Shown here one piece after another: positions 1-7,792 of a stretch of 64,000 bases of DNA. Position 1 is the first letter of the stretch, and every line of letters begins with the position of its first letter. Origin of the DNA: Hungatella hathewayi WAL-18680 (lineage in GTDB: Bacteria; Bacillota; Clostridia; Lachnospirales; Lachnospiraceae); assembly GCF_000235505.1 (NCBI RefSeq), contig NZ_JH379027.1, positions 3,121,456 to 3,185,455 of the forward strand, given 5' to 3'. The notes below the pieces were generated by a model, which saw only the letters and a list, made by a program, of their open reading frames with translations, was not told the origin of the DNA and did not search any database. The position numbers were made by a program, and so were the translations under genes.

Positions 1-2274
1 CGACCGTGTCCCATTCCTCATCGATGGGATAAAATCTCCTGGCTCGTATACCTGGATATCCATGGCATCGGCGCCATCGTTCTGCCAGTCTTCCTCCAGG
101 GTCCAGCCGGCAAATGTCTGGCTGAACAGGCTGATGCCGCTGGCGTCAGGGCTGGTAAGTTCCGATGGACATTCCGGGGCCGTCAGGGCGCCTTCTGTGA
201 TGGGAAGGGTCATGGATACGTCATCCAGGGAGACCTTTACCATCCGCTCCACACGCTTGTAGCCAGCGGCTTCCGTTGCTTCTATAAAGGTGATATTTTC
301 TTCACTGCACTGGTAAATGCCGTTCTGACCGATGTAGAAAATCTCTTCGCCGATTTCCTGCTCGGTGATGGTCTCTACCAGGTATTCTTCTGTTTCCTCT
401 GTTTCTTCGGTGGATAATTCCTCCGGCAGGGATTCGTCTGGGCCTGCGCCGTTGCCTGACAGACCGTCTCCCGCGCCATTGCCCGACAAACCGTCTCCTG
501 CGCCGGCTCCGCCGCCTTGCAGACTTTCGCTGTCTTGCATGCCTTCGCTGTCTTGGAGGCCCTCGCTGCCGTCCAGACCTTCGCTTCCTTGCAGTCCTTC
601 TTCGGTGGCAGATTCTCCGTTAGCATCTGTCGTATCCTCCATGCCTTCCAGTGAAGTTTCTCCGTCGACTCCATTGTTGGCACCGGAGGAGGCGCTGGTA
701 TCAGCATTATTGGCGTTGGTACTGTTATTGGGATTGGTACTGGTATTACCGTTGGTACTGCCGTTGCCGTTAGTCGTGTCATTGCCGTTAGCAGCGTTAT
801 TACCATTATCAGTTGTATGAGTGTTATTGGTGCTACCAGTGGTATCTGTGGTATCTGCTTTCGTTCCACCGTCTATCTTTTCCGTAGTATTGGATGCGGT
901 TCCGCTGTTTCCTGTTCCCGTACTTCCTGAGGAGTTATTTCCACCCGTATTCGCAGTACCACTGCCTGGTTTGGAAGTTCCGCCGGATGTCTGGGAAGAA
1001 TTGGTCTCTTTAGAGGTCGATGAACCGCCTCCCTGCGCTGTGTTTGATCCTTGGGAATCATGTGATTCAACGCCATCTGACAGTTTGGACGTCACCCAGA
1101 CATGGTCTCTGGCGCTGCGTCGCACCATGGCAGTTCCCTGCATGAGAATCGGTGCTATATCCGTTGTCTGATAGCCAAAAATCTGGATATTGTCCGGCAC
1201 CTGCTGATTGTCCTCTGCTGGTTGGTCAGACGCTCCATCACTGCCATTTCCAGAATTCCCGCCGGACTGGGAATCTCCCGCCGAGGCTTCCGGAACATGT
1301 GCATCCGAAGCAGGGGCTTCCGAAGCAGGTGCATCTGTCTGACTGCTGCCGGATTGGCTGTTATCGCCGACGTTCTGGTCACTTCCCTGTCCGTCATTGG
1401 ACTGATTGCCATTATCCTGACTTTCATTTCCACCATTATCAGAATGGCTTTCTTTATTTTGGTCGCCGGTTGCATTGGTACTGTCGCTTGGCTGAGTTTC
1501 AGCGGCATTTCCATGGTTTCCATTCGTTGGCTTTTCTTCTGTATTGGTATTCGGTTTACTATCTGATGTGCCGGAACCGCTCTGGTTTCCGTCAGCATTT
1601 CCACCAGTCTGACCAGCATTCTGTCCACCACTCTGGCTTCCACTCTGCCCCTTCTTATCTTCCTCCCCAGCTTCCGTCTCACCCGCCGAGTTCTCCCCCT
1701 CAGCGCCATCGCCGGCCGCATGTTCTCCACCTGTCAGGCCTTCTCCGCCCTCCGGACTTTCCACCGCCTCAGTCGTCTCCCCTTCCAGCCCTTCTCCCAG
1801 GCCATCCAGTTCCTCATCAAGAGGCGTCACAACCTCCGCTTTTGTGAATTTATTAACGATATCATGAAACTTCGGTGCATCCTCCTTGCTGTCGCCGCTG
1901 AACGCATAATCCCCTATCCGCACCAGCGTCCCCGGAAGCACCAGTTCTCCTGACAAATTGCCGCAGTTATACAGCAGGTAGTCACCGATAGAGGTTACCC
2001 CCGCTTTTATCTCCAACGACGTAATCTTCCCCACATAATCCGCAAACGGCACTGTTTCCTCCGTGTAATCCAGAGTTTCCCCGTGCCCGCTGATAGTCAG
2101 GTGTCCGTCGCTGGTCAGCACCGCCGTCACATTGTCCCCGTCGACGCCGATGTCCATCTTCATTTCCCTGCTGGTCGCAAACGTAAGAAAGAGGGGGCCT
2201 TTGATTACGGTTGTAATCAGGGCACATATCAATAATATGGAGATTGCCCTCCTCAAACGTCCTTTTGTCTTCAT
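1..2274 (-). CDS. Large secreted surface protein, BspA-like LRR then long low-complexity stalk (3' end outside window)
   Basis: An open frame of 758 codons runs without a stop from an ATG at 2274 to base 1, so the C-terminus is missing. The N-terminus (MKTKGRLRRAISILLIC) is a signal peptide. Residues about 75-135 contain a BspA-type leucine-rich segment (VTSIGDYLLYNCGNL, then LVRIGDYAFSG). Residues about 150-620 are an acidic and Gly/Ser/Asn/Thr-rich stretch with short degenerate repeats (GSEGLDGSEGLQDSEGMQDS; GDGLSGNGAGDGLSGNGAG). A folded segment resumes after about 630 and contains FAGWTLEED and YEPGDFIP, like an InlB-type B repeat. It is the last visible gene of the riboswitch-SipW operon, 12 bp after its neighbour. 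Inferred role: a cell-surface or matrix protein displayed on a long flexible stalk. The partner and anchor cannot be seen. Confidence 0.8.
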   Translation of the reverse strand, partial: MKTKGRLRRAISILLICALITTVIKGPLFLTFATSREMKMDIGVDGDNVTAVLTSDGHLTISGHGETLDYTEETVPFADYVGKITSLEIKAGVTSIGDYLLYNCGNLSGELVLPGTLVRIGDYAFSGDSKEDAPKFHDIVNKFTKAEVVTPLDEELDGLGEGLEGETTEAVESPEGGEGLTGGEHAAGDGAEGENSAGETEAGEEDKKGQSGSQSGGQNAGQTGGNADGNQSGSGTSDSKPNTNTEEKPTNGNHGNAAETQPSDSTNATGDQNKESHSDNGGNESQDNGNQSNDGQGSDQNVGDNSQSGSSQTDAPASEAPASDAHVPEASAGDSQSGGNSGNGSDGASDQPAEDNQQVPDNIQIFGYQTTDIAPILMQGTAMVRRSARDHVWVTSKLSDGVESHDSQGSNTAQGGGSSTSKETNSSQTSGGTSKPGSGTANTGGNNSSGSTGTGNSGTASNTTEKIDGGTKADTTDTTGSTNNTHTTDNGNNAANGNDTTNGNGSTNGNTSTNPNNSTNANNADTSASSGANNGVDGETSLEGMEDTTDANGESATEEGLQGSEGLDGSEGLQDSEGMQDSESLQGGGAGAGDGLSGNGAGDGLSGNGAGPDESLPEELSTEETEETEEYLVETITEQEIGEEIFYIGQNGIYQCSEENITFIEATEAAGYKRVERMVKVSLDDVSMTLPITEGALTAPECPSELTSPDASGISLFSQTFAGWTLEEDWQNDGADAMDIQVYEPGDFIPSMRNGTRS

Positions 2275-2286
2275 GCAGTCTTCCTC

Positions 2287-3183
2287 CTACCGCGGTATCA
2301 TAACCGTTTTCACCACGTTATCCGCAGTTACCGTAAATGCATCCGTATCCCCCAGCGCCCCCGTCATCAAAAATCTCAGGCGGCAGCTGTCTACTGTCTC
2401 AAACCCAATCCGGTAAGGCGGTGTCGTCGCCTCCGTCAGATAGGGGTTGGTATTGTCCGGCGTCAGCCCTGCGGGCCATTCGATGGAAACGCTTCCCGCC
2501 CCACTGACACCCAGCAGCAAATCCACATAGTCCGTGTGGTTCTCCGCCTCGCACTCCACATAGCTCTCCCCCTCCACCAGAAGGAACCGGAGGCTGATGG
2601 TCTTCACATATCCTTTTCCAGCCGCGTCCTGCACCGACTGAATCACCACGTTGAAGGCGGGATAAGCCGCGTTATCCGGCGTCCAGCCCGCGGGAACTGT
2701 TATGGCAATGGTCTGGTTCTCCGGGCTTCCATCCCCGCCAATCTTCCCATTCATATCGGAGTCCCCATGTATTTTATAAGTAAATGACGACGGCGTTTTC
2801 ACCTCATAGTAAATCGGCTCCTCCGTCACATGGTATGCGTCCGTATAGTTTTGCACCCCCACCAGGAAGGTGTACTCCTCCCCCGGCGTCCAGCCGTACA
2901 GCTCATGGACCGCACTGGCCGACCGGCTTCGGTAAAGACTCTGCTCCTGCTCCAGCTCGCTGGTGAAATAGAAGCTCTTGGCAATCCCGTTGCCGTTGCT
3001 GGTAAATTCCTTCCGGTACCTGGAAAATGTTCCCATCCCCACCATCATCAGCAGGCAGTAGATCGTGATAATCCACAGCCCGATTCCCATGGAAATGTGG
3101 TGACGTCTGGGTTTTCCGGAGGAACCATGCTCATTTTTTGCTCTGTCTGTCCTGTCATGGTGCAATCTTTTTCTTTTTTTCAA
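2287..3183 (-). CDS. Secreted protein with SipW-cognate-like N-terminus
   Basis: 298 residues. A basic N-terminus (about 30 residues, KR/H-rich) leads into one hydrophobic segment (about 34-52) and then FSRYRKEFTSNGNGIAKSF. This matches the ARYTSxVTGxGTA signature of the two TasA-like neighbours in spacing and several residues, so I infer processing by a SipW peptidase of the operon. The mature part looks beta-rich and has two related segments (VPAGWTPDN near residue 165 and WPAGLTPDN near 245). No catalytic motif is seen. It sits 16 bp downstream of the 3200-3805 gene and 12 bp upstream of the large stalk protein. A minor matrix subunit or adaptor is plausible; the exact role is unknown. Confidence 0.75.
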   Translation of the reverse strand: MKKRKRLHHDRTDRAKNEHGSSGKPRRHHISMGIGLWIITIYCLLMMVGMGTFSRYRKEFTSNGNGIAKSFYFTSELEQEQSLYRSRSASAVHELYGWTPGEEYTFLVGVQNYTDAYHVTEEPIYYEVKTPSSFTYKIHGDSDMNGKIGGDGSPENQTIAITVPAGWTPDNAAYPAFNVVIQSVQDAAGKGYVKTISLRFLLVEGESYVECEAENHTDYVDLLLGVSGAGSVSIEWPAGLTPDNTNPYLTEATTPPYRIGFETVDSCRLRFLMTGALGDTDAFTVTADNVVKTVMIPR

Positions 3184-3199
3184 TTGACCGCACCTCCTG

Positions 3200-3805
3200 T
3201 TATTCTGCCATACTTGGTTCCGTTTCTTTTATGGATGGGTCTGCCTGGGAAATGTCCACCTTCAAGGTGACTGCGTTGGTGGACGCCGCATAGACCGCAT
3301 CATTAGCCTCTTTCGGCCACGTAACTACCAATTTATAGGTATGAGTTGTCGGTACTCCCATGGGAAATGTCCCCTTCTCACTGTCAATAATGAGGTTTGT
3401 GGGGTCACCTACTCCTGCCTTTAAAACCACTCTCGTTCCATTTTTCTCCATATTCTCTGCCGTCATGTCTACCAGCGCAAATTCAAAGGGCACCTCCCCT
3501 ACAAATGCGACCTGAGTTGTGTATTCCAGTGCCACTTCGCTGACTTTCCCATCGGCATCTATATTAGACACCTGAAACTGTGTGGAGGCCGATTTACCGA
3601 CCTCAGTTGGCACCGCCACCGTCATTCTCTCATCTACATTGGAATTCACTGCAAATCTAGCCACCGTCGCCGTCCCAATTCCGGTCACCTGGGACGTATA
3701 CCTTGCATAGGTCGTCGCCCCGAAGATTCCTCCTATCAGAATCACATACACCAGATACATCCAGAGAGGTCTGCGCCCCCTGTTTCTCCTATGATTCTTC
3801 CTCAT
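3200..3805 (-). CDS. TasA/camelysin-like secreted protein, SipW-cognate class
   Basis: 201 residues from the ATG at 3805, two bases after the stop of the upstream sipW gene and served by the GAGGGGG inside that gene's 3' end. Longer in-frame versions would overlap sipW. Basic start (MRKNHRRNRGRRPLWMY), hydrophobic helix at about 15-31, then YARYTSQVTGIGTATVARF at about 34-51, the hallmark of SipW-processed TasA-like precursors. The mature part is a beta-rich single domain without Cys (VSEVALEYTTQVAF, THTYKLVVTWPKE). In Bacillus, TasA and TapA form amyloid-like biofilm fibres after SipW cleavage. By analogy this is probably a fibre or matrix subunit. Fibre formation is inference. Confidence 0.8.
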   Translation of the reverse strand: MRKNHRRNRGRRPLWMYLVYVILIGGIFGATTYARYTSQVTGIGTATVARFAVNSNVDERMTVAVPTEVGKSASTQFQVSNIDADGKVSEVALEYTTQVAFVGEVPFEFALVDMTAENMEKNGTRVVLKAGVGDPTNLIIDSEKGTFPMGVPTTHTYKLVVTWPKEANDAVYAASTNAVTLKVDISQADPSIKETEPSMAE

Positions 3806-3806
3806 T

Positions 3807-4307
3807 TCATGAATCCCCCTCTTTATCTCCAATCCAGTATGGCAGCTCCACCAGAACCACGCCGGCGAAGACCAGCACCACCAGGCCAACCGGTGTTCTC
3901 AAAAATGATATCAGCCAGCCCAGATAAGGAATCACAGCCACCTGTTTTCCCAGAATCTGCTCCTTCTCCACCGGGTCAATATCAGGCGTGTTGTTGGCGT
4001 CCCCCTGCAACAGGAACTGCCCGTCTTCCTCCCCGATAATCCGGTGGGTCACCGTCTGGCTCCCCATCTGGTAGGTCACTACATCGCCCACCTGGTATTC
4101 CGGCTTCTCCGTGATGAGAATCATATCCCCTGCTGAAAATGCCGGCTCCATACTGCCTGACAGCACATATACCGGGGTATATCCCAGAAATGACGGCATG
4201 GTCTCGTGAAACAGAAAGCGCTGGGCCATCAGCCACAGATTTACCACTACCAGAAATCCAAGCACCACGTACCCGGCTGCCTGTAATATTTTCACCACAC
4301 GTCTCAT
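3807..4307 (-). CDS. sipW: Signal peptidase I, SipW (ER-type)
   Basis: 166 residues. N-terminal membrane helix (about 8-28), catalytic box VLSGSMEPAF with Ser52, then QTVTHRI with His88 in place of the Lys of ordinary bacterial signal peptidases, and QGDANNTPD with the acidic residue. A second membrane helix follows near 128-155. Ser-His-Asp is the SipW/eukaryotic ER arrangement. It lies directly before the 3200-3805 TasA-like gene, which it probably processes. A second sipW begins the operon (6908-7555), so this copy may be specialised for the downstream substrates. Its TGA is followed after two bases by the next ATG, indicating translational coupling. Confidence 0.9.
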   Translation of the reverse strand: MRRVVKILQAAGYVVLGFLVVVNLWLMAQRFLFHETMPSFLGYTPVYVLSGSMEPAFSAGDMILITEKPEYQVGDVVTYQMGSQTVTHRIIGEEDGQFLLQGDANNTPDIDPVEKEQILGKQVAVIPYLGWLISFLRTPVGLVVLVFAGVVLVELPYWIGDKEGDS

Positions 4308-4337
4308 GTCCGTATCCCCTTTGTCATGTCTCTCGTC

Positions 4338-6023
4338 TTAATTGTCCTCTGTATAGATGCCCATATTCAGCAAATACGTCCGCTCCGCCACGGATTCCCG
4401 GCTGGCTACGGCAGTATCATTTTCATCATCCCCTGGAATTCCGGTCTCGTAGGGCCACACCCACTCGATTCGGTAATGGCTGGTGGTGTCCGCCCCTATC
4501 TGCTGTCCGTCCAGCAGCATCACGCTGTGCCCCCGTGTCATGGGGGTGGTCCAGTCGGTGATGACGTTCTCGCCGCTTTCCGAAATCTGGAGAAGCCGGA
4601 AACGCAGCGGCAGGTGAATAGTGTCCTCCGTCATGCGGATAAACATGGTGACGGAACGGTGATTGGTGTTCTGCACGTCGAAGGAATACCAGCCGGAGGA
4701 GCCGGGGCGAATCACAGGGATTTCCCCGTTCTCGGCAGTCTCGTTCTGGTGGTAAAACAAATCAATCTGCTGGTTTTCCACCCAGGCATTCCATTGGCCA
4801 TCCCGGTTTTCACCGGATATGGTGAGAGGGGCTTGGCTCTCCGGCTGGGTGGGGTTGTCATTGCCGCCATCGTCGCCGCCACTATTGTCTCCGCCATGAT
4901 TGCCACCGTTGTTGCCACTGCTACCGCCACTATTACCGCCACTGCTGCCACCGCTGGAGCTGTGGTTGGGATCATTTTTGTCGTTTCCATCTATGATGGT
5001 AACGTTGTCGTTGGTAAATCCATTGTCGGCGTTGGTTTCTCCGGGAAGCTGAATTGCTCCGGAGCCATTCTGGCCGTCGGATGATGGTGGGTTTCCGCCT
5101 TCCTGTCCGTTAGCGGGGTTGCCGGCGCCGTCCGTGTCGCCTGTGTTGCTCATGTTTCCGGAAGATGCCGCTCCCGCTGTGTCTTCCTGACCGGGCTGCC
5201 GCTCATCCGGCTTTATCACTTCTCCGCCAGACTTCACGGATGTGCCATCCGGCAAAGTTACTTCCTCTTTTGTAATAATGGTGCCATCGGGCAATGTCAT
5301 GCCCTCTTCCGGTATCCGCACCACCGTACTATCACTCTGAACCACAACGGGGTAGTGAATGACCTCGCTCTGCTGGTTGATAACGGTACCGGATGGAAGG
5401 ATGATAATGCCGCGGCTGACGTCAAGAGCGCCATCTGCGGTGTATACACTTCCCTCATGACTGGCCCCATAGCATAAATCCGGGTTCACTGTCAAAGTGC
5501 CGCTGCCGGTATCCAGTTTGATATTCATTTCGATATAAAAAACATCAGAGGACAGAGCAACATTGACTCTCCCGTCCTCCATATCTTTCACTTTGAAGCT
5601 ATTTCCCTCATTTTCAAGGCGTAAATCGAGAATCACAGACGCGATGGAATTGCCCTGGTCATCAACGGCAATCAGTTCGTGCCGTACCGGACTTGCGTGT
5701 TCAAATAAGAACCAGCCCTTCTCGTCGGTAACCGTCTCCTGGACCACGCTGTGAAGCTGGATTTTGTGATTGGGGATGGGCGTGCCGTCCGGATAGCTGA
5801 CAACACCTGCTATCTGAATAGGGGTGGCTTCCTCCCCCTCACTGCCTGCTACGATGACGCTGGATGGAGGAGTTTCGATGTTGTTTTTCGTATAACTTCC
5901 TATCAGGATGCTGGAGGCGAAGAGTAAGCACACCATAACCAGGCTTAACACCAGGAATATAGGCGTTAATATGTTTAGTCCGTCGTTATCTTCTTTTTTC
6001 CCGGTACTCTCCTGTTCTGTCAT
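4338..6023 (-). CDS. Membrane-anchored extracellular protein with Ig-like/CarboxypepD_reg-like domain and Gly/Asn linker
   Basis: 561 residues. Short cytoplasmic N-terminus, one membrane helix (about 20-45), then an Ig-like segment at about 72-115 (VSYPDGTPIPNHKIQLHS ... VTDEKGWFLFEH) typical of carboxypeptidase-regulatory-like or Cna-B-like folds. At about 205-265 it has three LPSGT/LPDGT motif repeats, then an SSGGNSGGSSGNNGG-type flexible linker (about 275-395). The C-terminal domain (VIRPGSSGWYSFDVQNTN ... FIRMTED) resembles the beta domain of TasA/CalY-type proteins. It lies between the two sipW genes, after a double hairpin that may set its dose relative to the 203-residue protein. Likely an envelope-tethered base or adaptor for the secreted subunits. 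That role is inferred from architecture and context. Confidence 0.7.
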   Translation of the reverse strand: MTEQESTGKKEDNDGLNILTPIFLVLSLVMVCLLFASSILIGSYTKNNIETPPSSVIVAGSEGEEATPIQIAGVVSYPDGTPIPNHKIQLHSVVQETVTDEKGWFLFEHASPVRHELIAVDDQGNSIASVILDLRLENEGNSFKVKDMEDGRVNVALSSDVFYIEMNIKLDTGSGTLTVNPDLCYGASHEGSVYTADGALDVSRGIIILPSGTVINQQSEVIHYPVVVQSDSTVVRIPEEGMTLPDGTIITKEEVTLPDGTSVKSGGEVIKPDERQPGQEDTAGAASSGNMSNTGDTDGAGNPANGQEGGNPPSSDGQNGSGAIQLPGETNADNGFTNDNVTIIDGNDKNDPNHSSSGGSSGGNSGGSSGNNGGNHGGDNSGGDDGGNDNPTQPESQAPLTISGENRDGQWNAWVENQQIDLFYHQNETAENGEIPVIRPGSSGWYSFDVQNTNHRSVTMFIRMTEDTIHLPLRFRLLQISESGENVITDWTTPMTRGHSVMLLDGQQIGADTTSHYRIEWVWPYETGIPGDDENDTAVASRESVAERTYLLNMGIYTEDN

Positions 6024-6068
6024 CCGCTGATTTCCTCTTTATCACAATCGTATCTGCCCATGTCAAAA

Positions 6069-6134
6069 CGTATAAGCCGGTATGTGGCTTATACGCTTTG
6101 ATATGGGCCGTGCCTGGCACAGGAGGCACGGTCC
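6069..6134 (-). terminator. Tandem hairpins between the TasA-like gene and the 561-residue gene
   Basis: Two consecutive stem-loops occupy the gap. One is a perfect 10-bp stem (6069-6078 with 6086-6095, 7-nt loop). The other is an 8-bp stem extended past a mismatch (6106-6115 with 6124-6134, 8-nt loop). In the transcribed direction the second base position is followed only by TTTTGACA, so termination would be partial. They probably also protect the upstream message 3' end, letting the 203-residue protein be made in excess over downstream genes. Confidence 0.55.
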
Positions 6135-6153
6135 GATTGATATGTTTCTGATA

Positions 6154-6765
6154 TTATGCTGCTGGTGCTGGTGCAAGGTCAATCTGAGTTGCTGTGCAGG
6201 TGATAGTAAAGGAAGCATCGGCAGCCGCTTTCACACCATCTGCTGTATCATCTGCATCACTACCATCCGCAGCCCATTTCCAATAAACAGTAGTCGGTTC
6301 CACAGTTCCACCAACTTTCACATTGCCTGAAGCAAGCTGACATATGCCACTTACTGAATCAAAATTCAGTTCATCACTTGGTTCACATTTCTCGGCAGAA
6401 TAAAATTTCAGATTTTTAGGCATATTTGTAATGGCAGAAATAGCAACTGTATAATCGAATGCCACCTCTGACCCCCCCTGCCCTACTTCGATTGCAAAAC
6501 TACCTTTAGTCCCTGGCGCTATTTTACCAGTAGCCAATTTTGTATTATCAGTTATAGTGCTATCACTTAAATTTACTTCAAAACTCTGCCCATCGGTTCC
6601 AGCAATACCGTTAAATGTTGGTGCCCACTTTGCAACTACTGCCGTACCGTTTCCAGTCACCTCGCTGGTATACTTCGCCAACGTACTACCAACCATACAA
6701 GCACTAACCAACGTCAATGCAACTGCCGCCATCCCCAAACTCTTAACTACTTTCCCTGCTTTCAT
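6154..6765 (-). CDS. TasA-like secreted matrix protein (putative major subunit)
   Basis: 203 residues, ATG at 6765 behind GGAGG. The N-terminus (MKAGKVVKSLGMAAVALTLV) is a signal peptide ending SACMVGSTLA, followed by KYTSEVTGNGTAVVAKW, the SipW-cognate signature. The mature protein is small, beta-rich and acidic, with a pair of Cys near 126 and 144 and another near 190. It ends in an Ala/Pro tail (LAPAPAA). It directly follows the first sipW gene and is followed by strong hairpins, an arrangement expected for an abundant structural subunit. I infer a role as fibre or matrix subunit like TasA. Sequence identity to TasA itself looks low, so a camelysin-like or novel member is possible. Confidence 0.8.
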   Translation of the reverse strand: MKAGKVVKSLGMAAVALTLVSACMVGSTLAKYTSEVTGNGTAVVAKWAPTFNGIAGTDGQSFEVNLSDSTITDNTKLATGKIAPGTKGSFAIEVGQGGSEVAFDYTVAISAITNMPKNLKFYSAEKCEPSDELNFDSVSGICQLASGNVKVGGTVEPTTVYWKWAADGSDADDTADGVKAAADASFTITCTATQIDLAPAPAA

Positions 6766-6907
6766 CTTTTAACATCCTCCTTCATTATCCTTCGCCGCCG
6801 ATTGTGCCGACCCTCTGGGTCCCCGGCCTTTGTTTCACATACATTGTTTGTACGTCTACTCTATGTAGTCAGCTTTCTTCATATTCCGAAGCTGGATACA
6901 CCTAATC

Positions 6908-7555
6908 TCAGGCATCTCCCGATGTCTTCTCCTTCTGGGCCGCCTTTAACGCTTCCAGTTCTGCTTCCAGCTCTTCCGCCCGTTTCTTCTCCTTGCTGCC
7001 ATTTTTTCTCCGCTTCAGCAAATCCCACAGAAGCAGCGCTGCCAGCGGACAGATAATCAACACCAGCATTCCCATACTGGTCTGGGCGAACATAAGCACA
7101 TTTCCAAGGGCCGGGATTCTGGTTCCGCTCCAGACGCCTTCTATCTGCTCCGGCTCCACGGCCAGTCTGTCCTCCACGTTGTTGTTGTCACCCTTGGTCA
7201 CATAGGATACCTTTCCTTCCGTCTCCAGCACCTGCACCACTCTATGGGTGGTTGCCTTCCCGGAATACTGGTAGCAGATGACATCTCCCACCTGCAGGGC
7301 GCTGGGGTTCTCCGTGTCCTTAATCAGAATCACGTCCCCCGGATAAAACGCCGGCTCCATGGAACCGGATAACACGATGGTAGGTCGATATCCCGCCACC
7401 CCCGGCAGATGCGACGGGTCCTTGAAATTGTTGACAATCAGGACCACATTTACCACAATCACCGGTATCAATATCACACACAGGACAATCCCAAGTATAT
7501 TCCAGACAATGCTGCCTGAACTGCCCTTTTTCTTCTGGCTGCGCCGTTTCCCCAT
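6908..7555 (-). CDS. sipW: Signal peptidase I, SipW (ER-type), first gene of riboswitch operon
   Basis: 215 residues from ATG 7555, chosen because GTGGAGG stands 7 bases upstream. A longer in-frame reading would start inside the riboswitch and run through its terminator. Basic N-terminus (GKRRSQKKK), membrane helix at about 17-42, VLSGSMEPAF with Ser65, TTHRVV with His104, KGDNNNVED with Asp123/Asp129, then a C-terminal helix (about 150-175) and a charged coiled-coil tail (EKKRAEELEAELEALKAAQ). The Ser/His/Asp set marks SipW rather than SipS/LepB peptidases. It is expected to cleave the TasA-like precursors of the same operon. The coiled-coil tail is absent from the second SipW here and could dock a partner. 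Confidence 0.9.
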   Translation of the reverse strand: MGKRRSQKKKGSSGSIVWNILGIVLCVILIPVIVVNVVLIVNNFKDPSHLPGVAGYRPTIVLSGSMEPAFYPGDVILIKDTENPSALQVGDVICYQYSGKATTHRVVQVLETEGKVSYVTKGDNNNVEDRLAVEPEQIEGVWSGTRIPALGNVLMFAQTSMGMLVLIICPLAALLLWDLLKRRKNGSKEKKRAEELEAELEALKAAQKEKTSGDA

Positions 7556-7588
7556 ATCAAAATCCTCCACTTTTCTCCGTTTTAAACA

Positions 7589-7612
7589 TAAAAAAAGGGC
7601 ATAAACATGCCC
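7589..7612 (-). terminator. Intrinsic terminator of the riboswitch expression platform
   Basis: Read leftward: GGGCAT, loop GTTT, ATGCCC, then TTTTTTTAT. It lies directly after the aptamer and about 35 bases before the sipW ribosome site, so it can abort transcription of the whole operon. Its position makes it the switchable element. Which ligand state favours termination cannot be read by eye. Confidence 0.85.
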
Positions 7613-7627
7613 TCCGCTAATAAATAT

Positions 7628-7722
7628 ATGTGCAACTGGCTGGCATACCATTCGTTTCCAAATGGGTTAGCCCCTAAAGTTTTGCGACTCTGCTTTTCAA
7701 CAGATGTGCCGAATATGTAATT
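7628..7722 (-). ncRNA. Cyclic-di-GMP-I (GEMM-I) riboswitch aptamer
   Basis: On the minus strand the leader shows the GEMM-I blocks in order: CGGCACATCTG, a GAAA-capped hairpin (TCTG TTGAAAAG CAGA), GTCGCAAAACTTTAGGGGCTAA, a second hairpin closed by CCATT/AATGG, then TATGCCAGCCAGTTGC. The last block closely matches the UAUGACAGCC-GGUUGC end of known class I aptamers, and CGCAAA ... GG-CUAA is the conserved core. It is followed by a terminator and the sipW/TasA-like operon, linking matrix gene expression to c-di-GMP. The CGGCA reading suggests G at the position separating c-di-GMP from cGAMP binders, but this needs a covariance alignment. The outer P1 helix is weak. Confidence 0.85.
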
Positions 7723-7763
7723 GTCATTGTATTGCTAGGACGAAAACTCATCTACGCACCTTT

Positions 7764-7792
7764 ATTATCGCTCATGTTGTCAGATTTTGCAA
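7764..7792 (-). promoter_or_regulatory. Promoter of the riboswitch-sipW operon
   Basis: TTGCAA (7787-7792) and GATAAT (7764-7769), reading leftward, are separated by exactly 17 bases. Transcription would begin near 7757, placing the aptamer about 35 nt into the message. The remaining AT-rich stretch 7793-7956 shows no gene or clear site. Confidence 0.65.

Follow-up and report, generated by a model that had tools for sequence, protein, structure and literature searches.

A c-di-GMP-I riboswitch ahead of a SipW-type surface-protein operon in Hungatella hathewayi

A stretch of 64,000 nucleotides from Hungatella hathewayi WAL-18680 (contig NZ_JH379027.1, positions 3,121,456 to 3,185,455; hereafter the window) carries, on its minus strand, a riboswitch aptamer of the class that binds cyclic dimeric guanosine monophosphate (c-di-GMP), class I, followed by an intrinsic terminator and a run of genes for two SipW-type signal peptidases and their secreted neighbours. 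The arrangement recurs across genera. Our preferred reading, which we hold with moderate confidence, is that this RNA controls a surface-protein operon of about 15 kb by transcription termination, that the operon would be off when c-di-GMP is high, and that a small secreted protein, here called P2, would be the main subunit of what it makes.

The aptamer and its expression platform

The aptamer matches the covariance model RF01051 over its full length (1-87) at 64.1 bits, with a gathering score of 35 and an E-value of 3.1e-10, and it is the single match to that model in a search of the source genome. Three bases predicted to be important for ligand binding in the c-di-GMP-I class, namely G20, A47 and C92 in the numbering of Vc2 (PMC11218506), have their equivalents at 7709, 7682 and 7632 in an alignment of the conserved motifs. 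The genome also codes for enzymes of c-di-GMP metabolism, with about 20 GGDEF domains above cut-off and five EAL domains. A search of the genome for c-di-GMP-II riboswitches (RF01786) gave no match, and the controls gave none either, so that absence of this second class is not demonstrated. On its sequence, then, the RNA is a genuine c-di-GMP-I class riboswitch with a predicted ligand.

The terminator that follows is a hairpin with arms GGAGGGCATG and TTTATGCCC and then a run of T; its folding energy in isolation is -11.6 kcal/mol, with a z-score of -2.7 relative to shuffled sequence. It shares no base with the aptamer, and the leader scan found the same in a relative from the same family, G276. 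GGCAUG in its 5' arm can pair with UAUGCC in the aptamer, which would constitute an antiterminator. Transcription is predicted to start near 7757, downstream of a promoter-like sequence (TTGCAA-17-GATAAT) that scores 9/12 in a consensus scan and is weak, as shuffles give about as many sites. When the transcript has reached 113-123 nucleotides, ligand-free folds that free the aptamer 3' strand are better than the aptamer by 2-4 kcal/mol; at 125 nucleotides the fold of lowest energy is the UAUGCC/GGCAUG antiterminator; and from 127 nucleotides the combination of aptamer and terminator is nearly as good as the terminator alone.

By a published rule (PMC9262584), the OFF switch Cd1 lets aptamer and terminator form side by side, in competition with an antiterminator, whereas in the ON switch pilM the one excludes the other; the c-di-GMP-I switches of Clostridioides difficile are all OFF (PMC6366702). 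The window leader looks like the Cd1-type OFF arrangement, so c-di-GMP is predicted to repress the operon. The ligand should favour termination because aptamer and terminator are separate and coexist cheaply, and because the antiterminator is favoured before the terminator is complete. At low c-di-GMP, the aptamer 3' strand would be sequestered in the antiterminator together with the terminator 5' arm, and polymerase would continue into the coding region; a high level would lock the aptamer, so that the terminator forms and the operon is off. A preliminary description of this stretch had implied the reverse sign, with c-di-GMP raising matrix output, which sits poorly with the architecture seen here: the terminator stands apart from the aptamer, and the predicted antiterminator draws on the aptamer 3' strand, as in Cd1. 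Neither architecture is rare, since a crude scan of 56 other RF01051 leaders found the terminator separate in 30 and overlapping in nine (17 had none).

Recurrence in relatives and layout of the operon

SipW1, the first gene behind the leader, was searched for in 299 genomes of the same family, 38 of which gave a match; 46 loci came out of a scan of named genomes. The four nearest relatives in these two scans (41-44% identity) all have a c-di-GMP-I aptamer nearby: G276 and G157 are from the same family, while L063 and L064 are Eubacteriales contigs of metagenome-assembled genomes (MAGs). The setting differs from one to the next. L063 has a changed gene order, in which P5-like and giant genes come first and the aptamer heads that run; in L064, a large gene comes first, then the aptamer, then SipW1; in G276, a response-regulator gene precedes the aptamer. 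In G157, the gene for an HU-like DNA-binding protein (L110 10388-10828) sits between riboswitch and SipW1 and may therefore share c-di-GMP control. A later search with P3, the third gene of the run, found full operons of the same type in G1051 and G1074, and in neither was an aptamer detected upstream of SipW1, above or below cut-off, including in a permissive Rfam search for a decayed copy. The whole operon type is found in seven genomes, with the aptamer ahead of it in five and absent in two; the statement that every near SipW1 relative has the riboswitch was dropped on account of G1051 and G1074.

RF01051 occurs about 240 times, as a summed count, in the 299 genomes of the family. Three aptamers lie within 1 kb upstream of the approximately 42 SipW loci where 0.006 would be expected, and five lie within 8 kb against an expectation of 0.045, both expectations being rough Poisson estimates that assume 3 Mb per genome and ignore relatedness. 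The two loci added at 8 kb are in G164, where tandem c-di-GMP-I aptamers (L183 2466-2793) stand before a 1551-residue secreted protein and then a SipW1 cluster, and in G234, where an RNA of the related model RF03167 (L184 17005-17083), with a terminator overlap of the ON type, stands before a different SipW-type secretion cluster. With c-di-GMP-I RNAs upstream of these clusters, we also dropped the idea that the riboswitch is confined to the operon type of the window. The 1551-residue protein appears to be transglutaminase-like, to judge from its sequence alone. Protein regulators are encoded beside other SipW loci: a histidine kinase and a response regulator directly upstream of SipW1 in G1074, and LytTR response regulators adjoining the SipW operons of G250 and G233. 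Taken together, the comparative data strengthen the link between riboswitch and SipW operon that the preliminary description had drawn.

Behind the terminator, the minus-strand order in the window is SipW1, P2, P3, SipW2, P5, P6 and then a giant gene extending past the edge of the window (Table 1), with intergenic gaps of 142, 130, 30, about 1, 16 and 12 bases; from strand and spacing we infer that all genes are in one transcript. The start codon of SipW1, ATG at 7555, is preceded by GGAGG, its S65 and H104 occupy invariant alignment columns, and a search of the PDB returned SEC11. Against NF046067, the equivalog model for Bacillus SipW (cut-off 190), the two peptidases score 124.5 (SipW1) and 86 bits, both below; with both above the TIGR02228 cut-off (Table 1), we class SipW1 and SipW2 as relatives of SipW of the endoplasmic reticulum (ER) type. 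The GEMM-I aptamer, the intrinsic terminator after it and the two SipW peptidases had all been named in the preliminary description and all stand. The interval assigned there, 3200-7792, does hold same-strand genes behind the riboswitch, but the run continues past 3200 through P6 and the giant gene, to about 7.3 kb outside the window.

A stable stem separates P2 from P3, and comparable stems occur in seven of the eight relatives examined. It is possibly an attenuator or a 3' stabiliser of a short RNA, and it recalls Clostridium perfringens, where a terminator yields a short sipW-bsaA RNA besides a read-through RNA (PMC7395162).

Table 1. Features of the riboswitch-headed operon, in order of transcription (window coordinates)
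Feature	Position	Strand	Basis
Promoter-like TTGCAA-17-GATAAT	7764..7792	-	Consensus scan; weak
c-di-GMP-I riboswitch aptamer	7628..7720	-	RF01051 covariance match; conserved motifs in alignments
Intrinsic terminator of the expression platform	7594..7615	-	Hairpin and U tract
SipW1, ER-type signal peptidase, Ser-His dyad (SGSMEP, THR)	6908..7555	-	TIGR02228, 110.7 bits (cut-off 51.85)
P2, 203-residue secreted protein, presumed major subunit	6154..6765	-	SipW-type motif by eye
Stable stem between P2 and P3	6024..6153	-	-53 kcal/mol
P3, N-terminal membrane anchor, CarboxypepD_reg-like domain, linker and P2-like C-domain	4338..6023	-	Alignment, profile
SipW2, second ER-type signal peptidase	3807..4307	-	TIGR02228, 93.8 bits (cut-off 51.85)
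P5, secreted, SipW-type N-terminus by eye	3200..3805	-	Sequence; G157 homologue at 33% identity
P6, secreted, SipW-type N-terminus by eye	2287..3183	-	Sequence; homologues in G157 and G1051
Start of giant secreted gene, BspA-type LRR_5 stretch	1..2274	-	Open frame; continuation in L002

The secreted proteins and what they may build

In every homologous operon P2 comes after SipW1, and an hhalign comparison (6e-13) shows homology between P2 and the C-terminal domain of P3. Three secreted proteins with the SipW-cognate signature had been described. The motif can be made out by eye in P2, P5 and P6, but P6 lies outside the interval concerned, in which the third protein is the membrane-anchored P3, and P2, P5 and P6 gave no match to the models for TasA/camelysin (PF12389, NF046066), BsaA (TIGR04090) or SipW-cognate proteins (TIGR04088). 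Four homologues of P2, P5 and P6 likewise gave no match to PF12389 or NF046066, models that do match camelysin-like control proteins of other Clostridia, and TIGR04090 gave the homologue in L063 15.1 bits, under its cut-off of 60.

Aligned with camelysin-like proteins by hhalign, the P2 profile gave an E-value of 6e-7 with the signal peptide and 0.023 without it; because the match collapsed in this way, we do not call P2 a TasA homologue. A sequence search of the PDB with the P2 profile found nothing relevant. Two AlphaFold2 models of P2, one of all 203 residues and one of 175 without most of the signal peptide, are beta-rich and of middling confidence (mean predicted local distance difference test score, pLDDT, 76-78), and Foldseek found for both no match in the PDB at E <= 0.001. 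The top 50 rows include the TasA fibre 8aur (E 0.03, template-modelling score, TM-score, 0.26) and the archaeal bundling pilus 7ueg (E 0.06), neither of them significant. The label 'TasA-like', which the operon had been given, is therefore not established.

This lack of any family match favours a product other than a fibre, in which SipW1 and SipW2 would process a non-fibrous surface complex around the giant BspA-like protein, for adhesion or for some function exerted when c-di-GMP is low. No other product comes near the giant protein in size, and an OFF sign would suit a function under that condition. Set against this, the filaments that C. perfringens makes with SipW and a small secreted partner are an established system (PMC7395162), and 8aur and 7ueg are among the top structure rows, though not significantly. 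We regard the non-fibrous complex as possible though unlikely, and a filament with P2 as its main subunit as the most likely product, on grounds of analogy rather than demonstrated homology. Maturation of P2, P5 and P6 would then fall to SipW1 and SipW2; P2 would be the chief subunit outside the cell, P3 possibly the membrane-anchored base of the fibre, and the giant protein a partner at the surface.

The other products add detail. The CarboxypepD_reg-like domain of P3 matches PF13620 at 28.6 bits (E 1.9e-6), below the cut-off of 32.3, and a class-level search with P3 returned, outside its own genome, partial matches only. The giant gene reaches 28.2 bits with PF13306 (LRR_5; cut-off 27.7), contains a run of N (L002 15965-16456) and has homologues in G157, G1051 and G1074. 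The G+C content at third codon positions is 0.31 in P2 and 0.53-0.69 in the other operon genes, the AT-rich stretch being the mature part, as if it had been exchanged or were under different codon selection. Downstream of the operon, past a citrate-synthase-like gene recognised by eye, L002 1121-6096 codes for an S26 signal peptidase of a third type and a 1406-residue GLUG/M26-like surface protein, which may constitute another secretion cluster.

Direction of the switch, its ligand and known systems

Several observations weigh against an OFF switch at the head of a P2 fibre operon. Repression of such an operon by c-di-GMP runs counter to the usual role of this messenger. Two full operons, in G1051 and G1074, have no aptamer upstream. 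None of the models for TasA, camelysin or BsaA picks up P2, and structure searches with its predicted fold gave nothing significant. An antiterminator duplex equally good arises in about one quarter of shuffled aptamers. Finally, the window aptamer departs from the consensus at two near-invariant positions: like that of G157, it has GGCACA/GUCGC in place of GGCAAA/GACGC flanking the pocket, a pair found in none of 53 other cores.

An ON switch, in which c-di-GMP would block termination and so turn on the surface operon in keeping with a matrix-promoting role, has its precedents close by. In the leaders of the homologous operons of L063 and L064, and of the G234 cluster, 14-27 bases belong to both aptamer and terminator, the 3' strand of the one serving as the 5' arm of the other, which by the published rule is the ON arrangement (PMC9262584), and class I ON switches such as Bc2 exist (PMC6366702). 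In the window, however, aptamer and terminator share no base and form together at little cost, and the terminators of G276 and G157 are separate too, the G157 hairpin having been seen in folding and overlooked by the automatic scan. We consider an ON switch in the window improbable.

We give less credence still to a leader that binds its ligand and barely regulates, or to an aptamer in decay, with expression set by other regulators as in the relatives with two-component genes. Such a view accommodates the two operons without an aptamer, the two-component pair just upstream in G1074, the changed near-invariant positions in the window and G157, and the precedent of Bacillus thuringiensis Bc1, which binds c-di-GMP without net effect (PMC11218506); it fits poorly with a 64-bit match in which the pocket bases are kept, with an intact terminator and with recurrence alongside different platforms.

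Least probable, and in our view quite doubtful, is that the window and G157 aptamers are a sub-variant for another or a mixed cyclic dinucleotide, for instance cyclic GMP-AMP (cGAMP), by virtue of a coordinated two-base change beside the pocket (to which G157 adds a U at its C92 equivalent), with a standard aptamer and the opposite, ON platform retained in homologous operons elsewhere. Aptamers of this class are known to acquire cGAMP binding by a G20A change (PMC6274999), and the G20 equivalent of the window aptamer is unaltered. Were it true, cyclic dinucleotides would be wired to one surface operon with ligand and sign both evolving. The U in the G157 aptamer (L110 10821-10913) may in itself alter ligand preference. 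For the window RNA, the most likely ligand predicted is c-di-GMP.

With Cd1, the OFF switch of the C. difficile flgB operon (PMC9262584, PMC6366702), the window leader shares the aptamer class, the separate terminator and, as predicted, an antiterminator of aptamer 3' strand and terminator arm; Cd1, however, controls flagella, and its OFF sign is proven where that of the window is predicted. The Geobacter pilM ON riboswitch (PMC9262584), whose aptamer strand is a terminator arm, is the counterpart of the L063, L064 and G234 leaders and the opposite of the window's; it senses cGAMP and controls pilus genes. As regards the genes, C. perfringens sipW-bsaABCRSD (PMC7395162) also places a small secreted protein behind sipW, encodes more secreted proteins and has a hairpin after the first secreted gene, but it needs BsaRS and temperature, has one SipW and no reported riboswitch, and TIGR04090 misses P2. 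Bacillus subtilis tapA-sipW-tasA similarly sets a SipW-type ER-like peptidase beside its secreted substrates; unlike the window operon it is under SinR control, TasA models miss P2, P5 and P6, and SipW1 falls short of the Bacillus equivalog (124.5 against 190).

Protein regulators govern the SipW-fibre operons known so far (SinR in Bacillus, BsaRS in C. perfringens), and in the open-access literature we found no prior report linking a SipW operon, TasA or camelysin to a c-di-GMP riboswitch. With a second-messenger RNA in the leader, recurring across genera, the idea that c-di-GMP controls surface proteins dependent on SipW can be put to a direct test. The sign appears to be split, with OFF-type leaders in three genomes of the family and ON-type leaders in two Eubacteriales MAGs. 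This apparent split cautions that a c-di-GMP riboswitch plus a matrix gene should not be read as activation, and if true it would be a clean example of the same signal acting on the same type of operon with contrary results.

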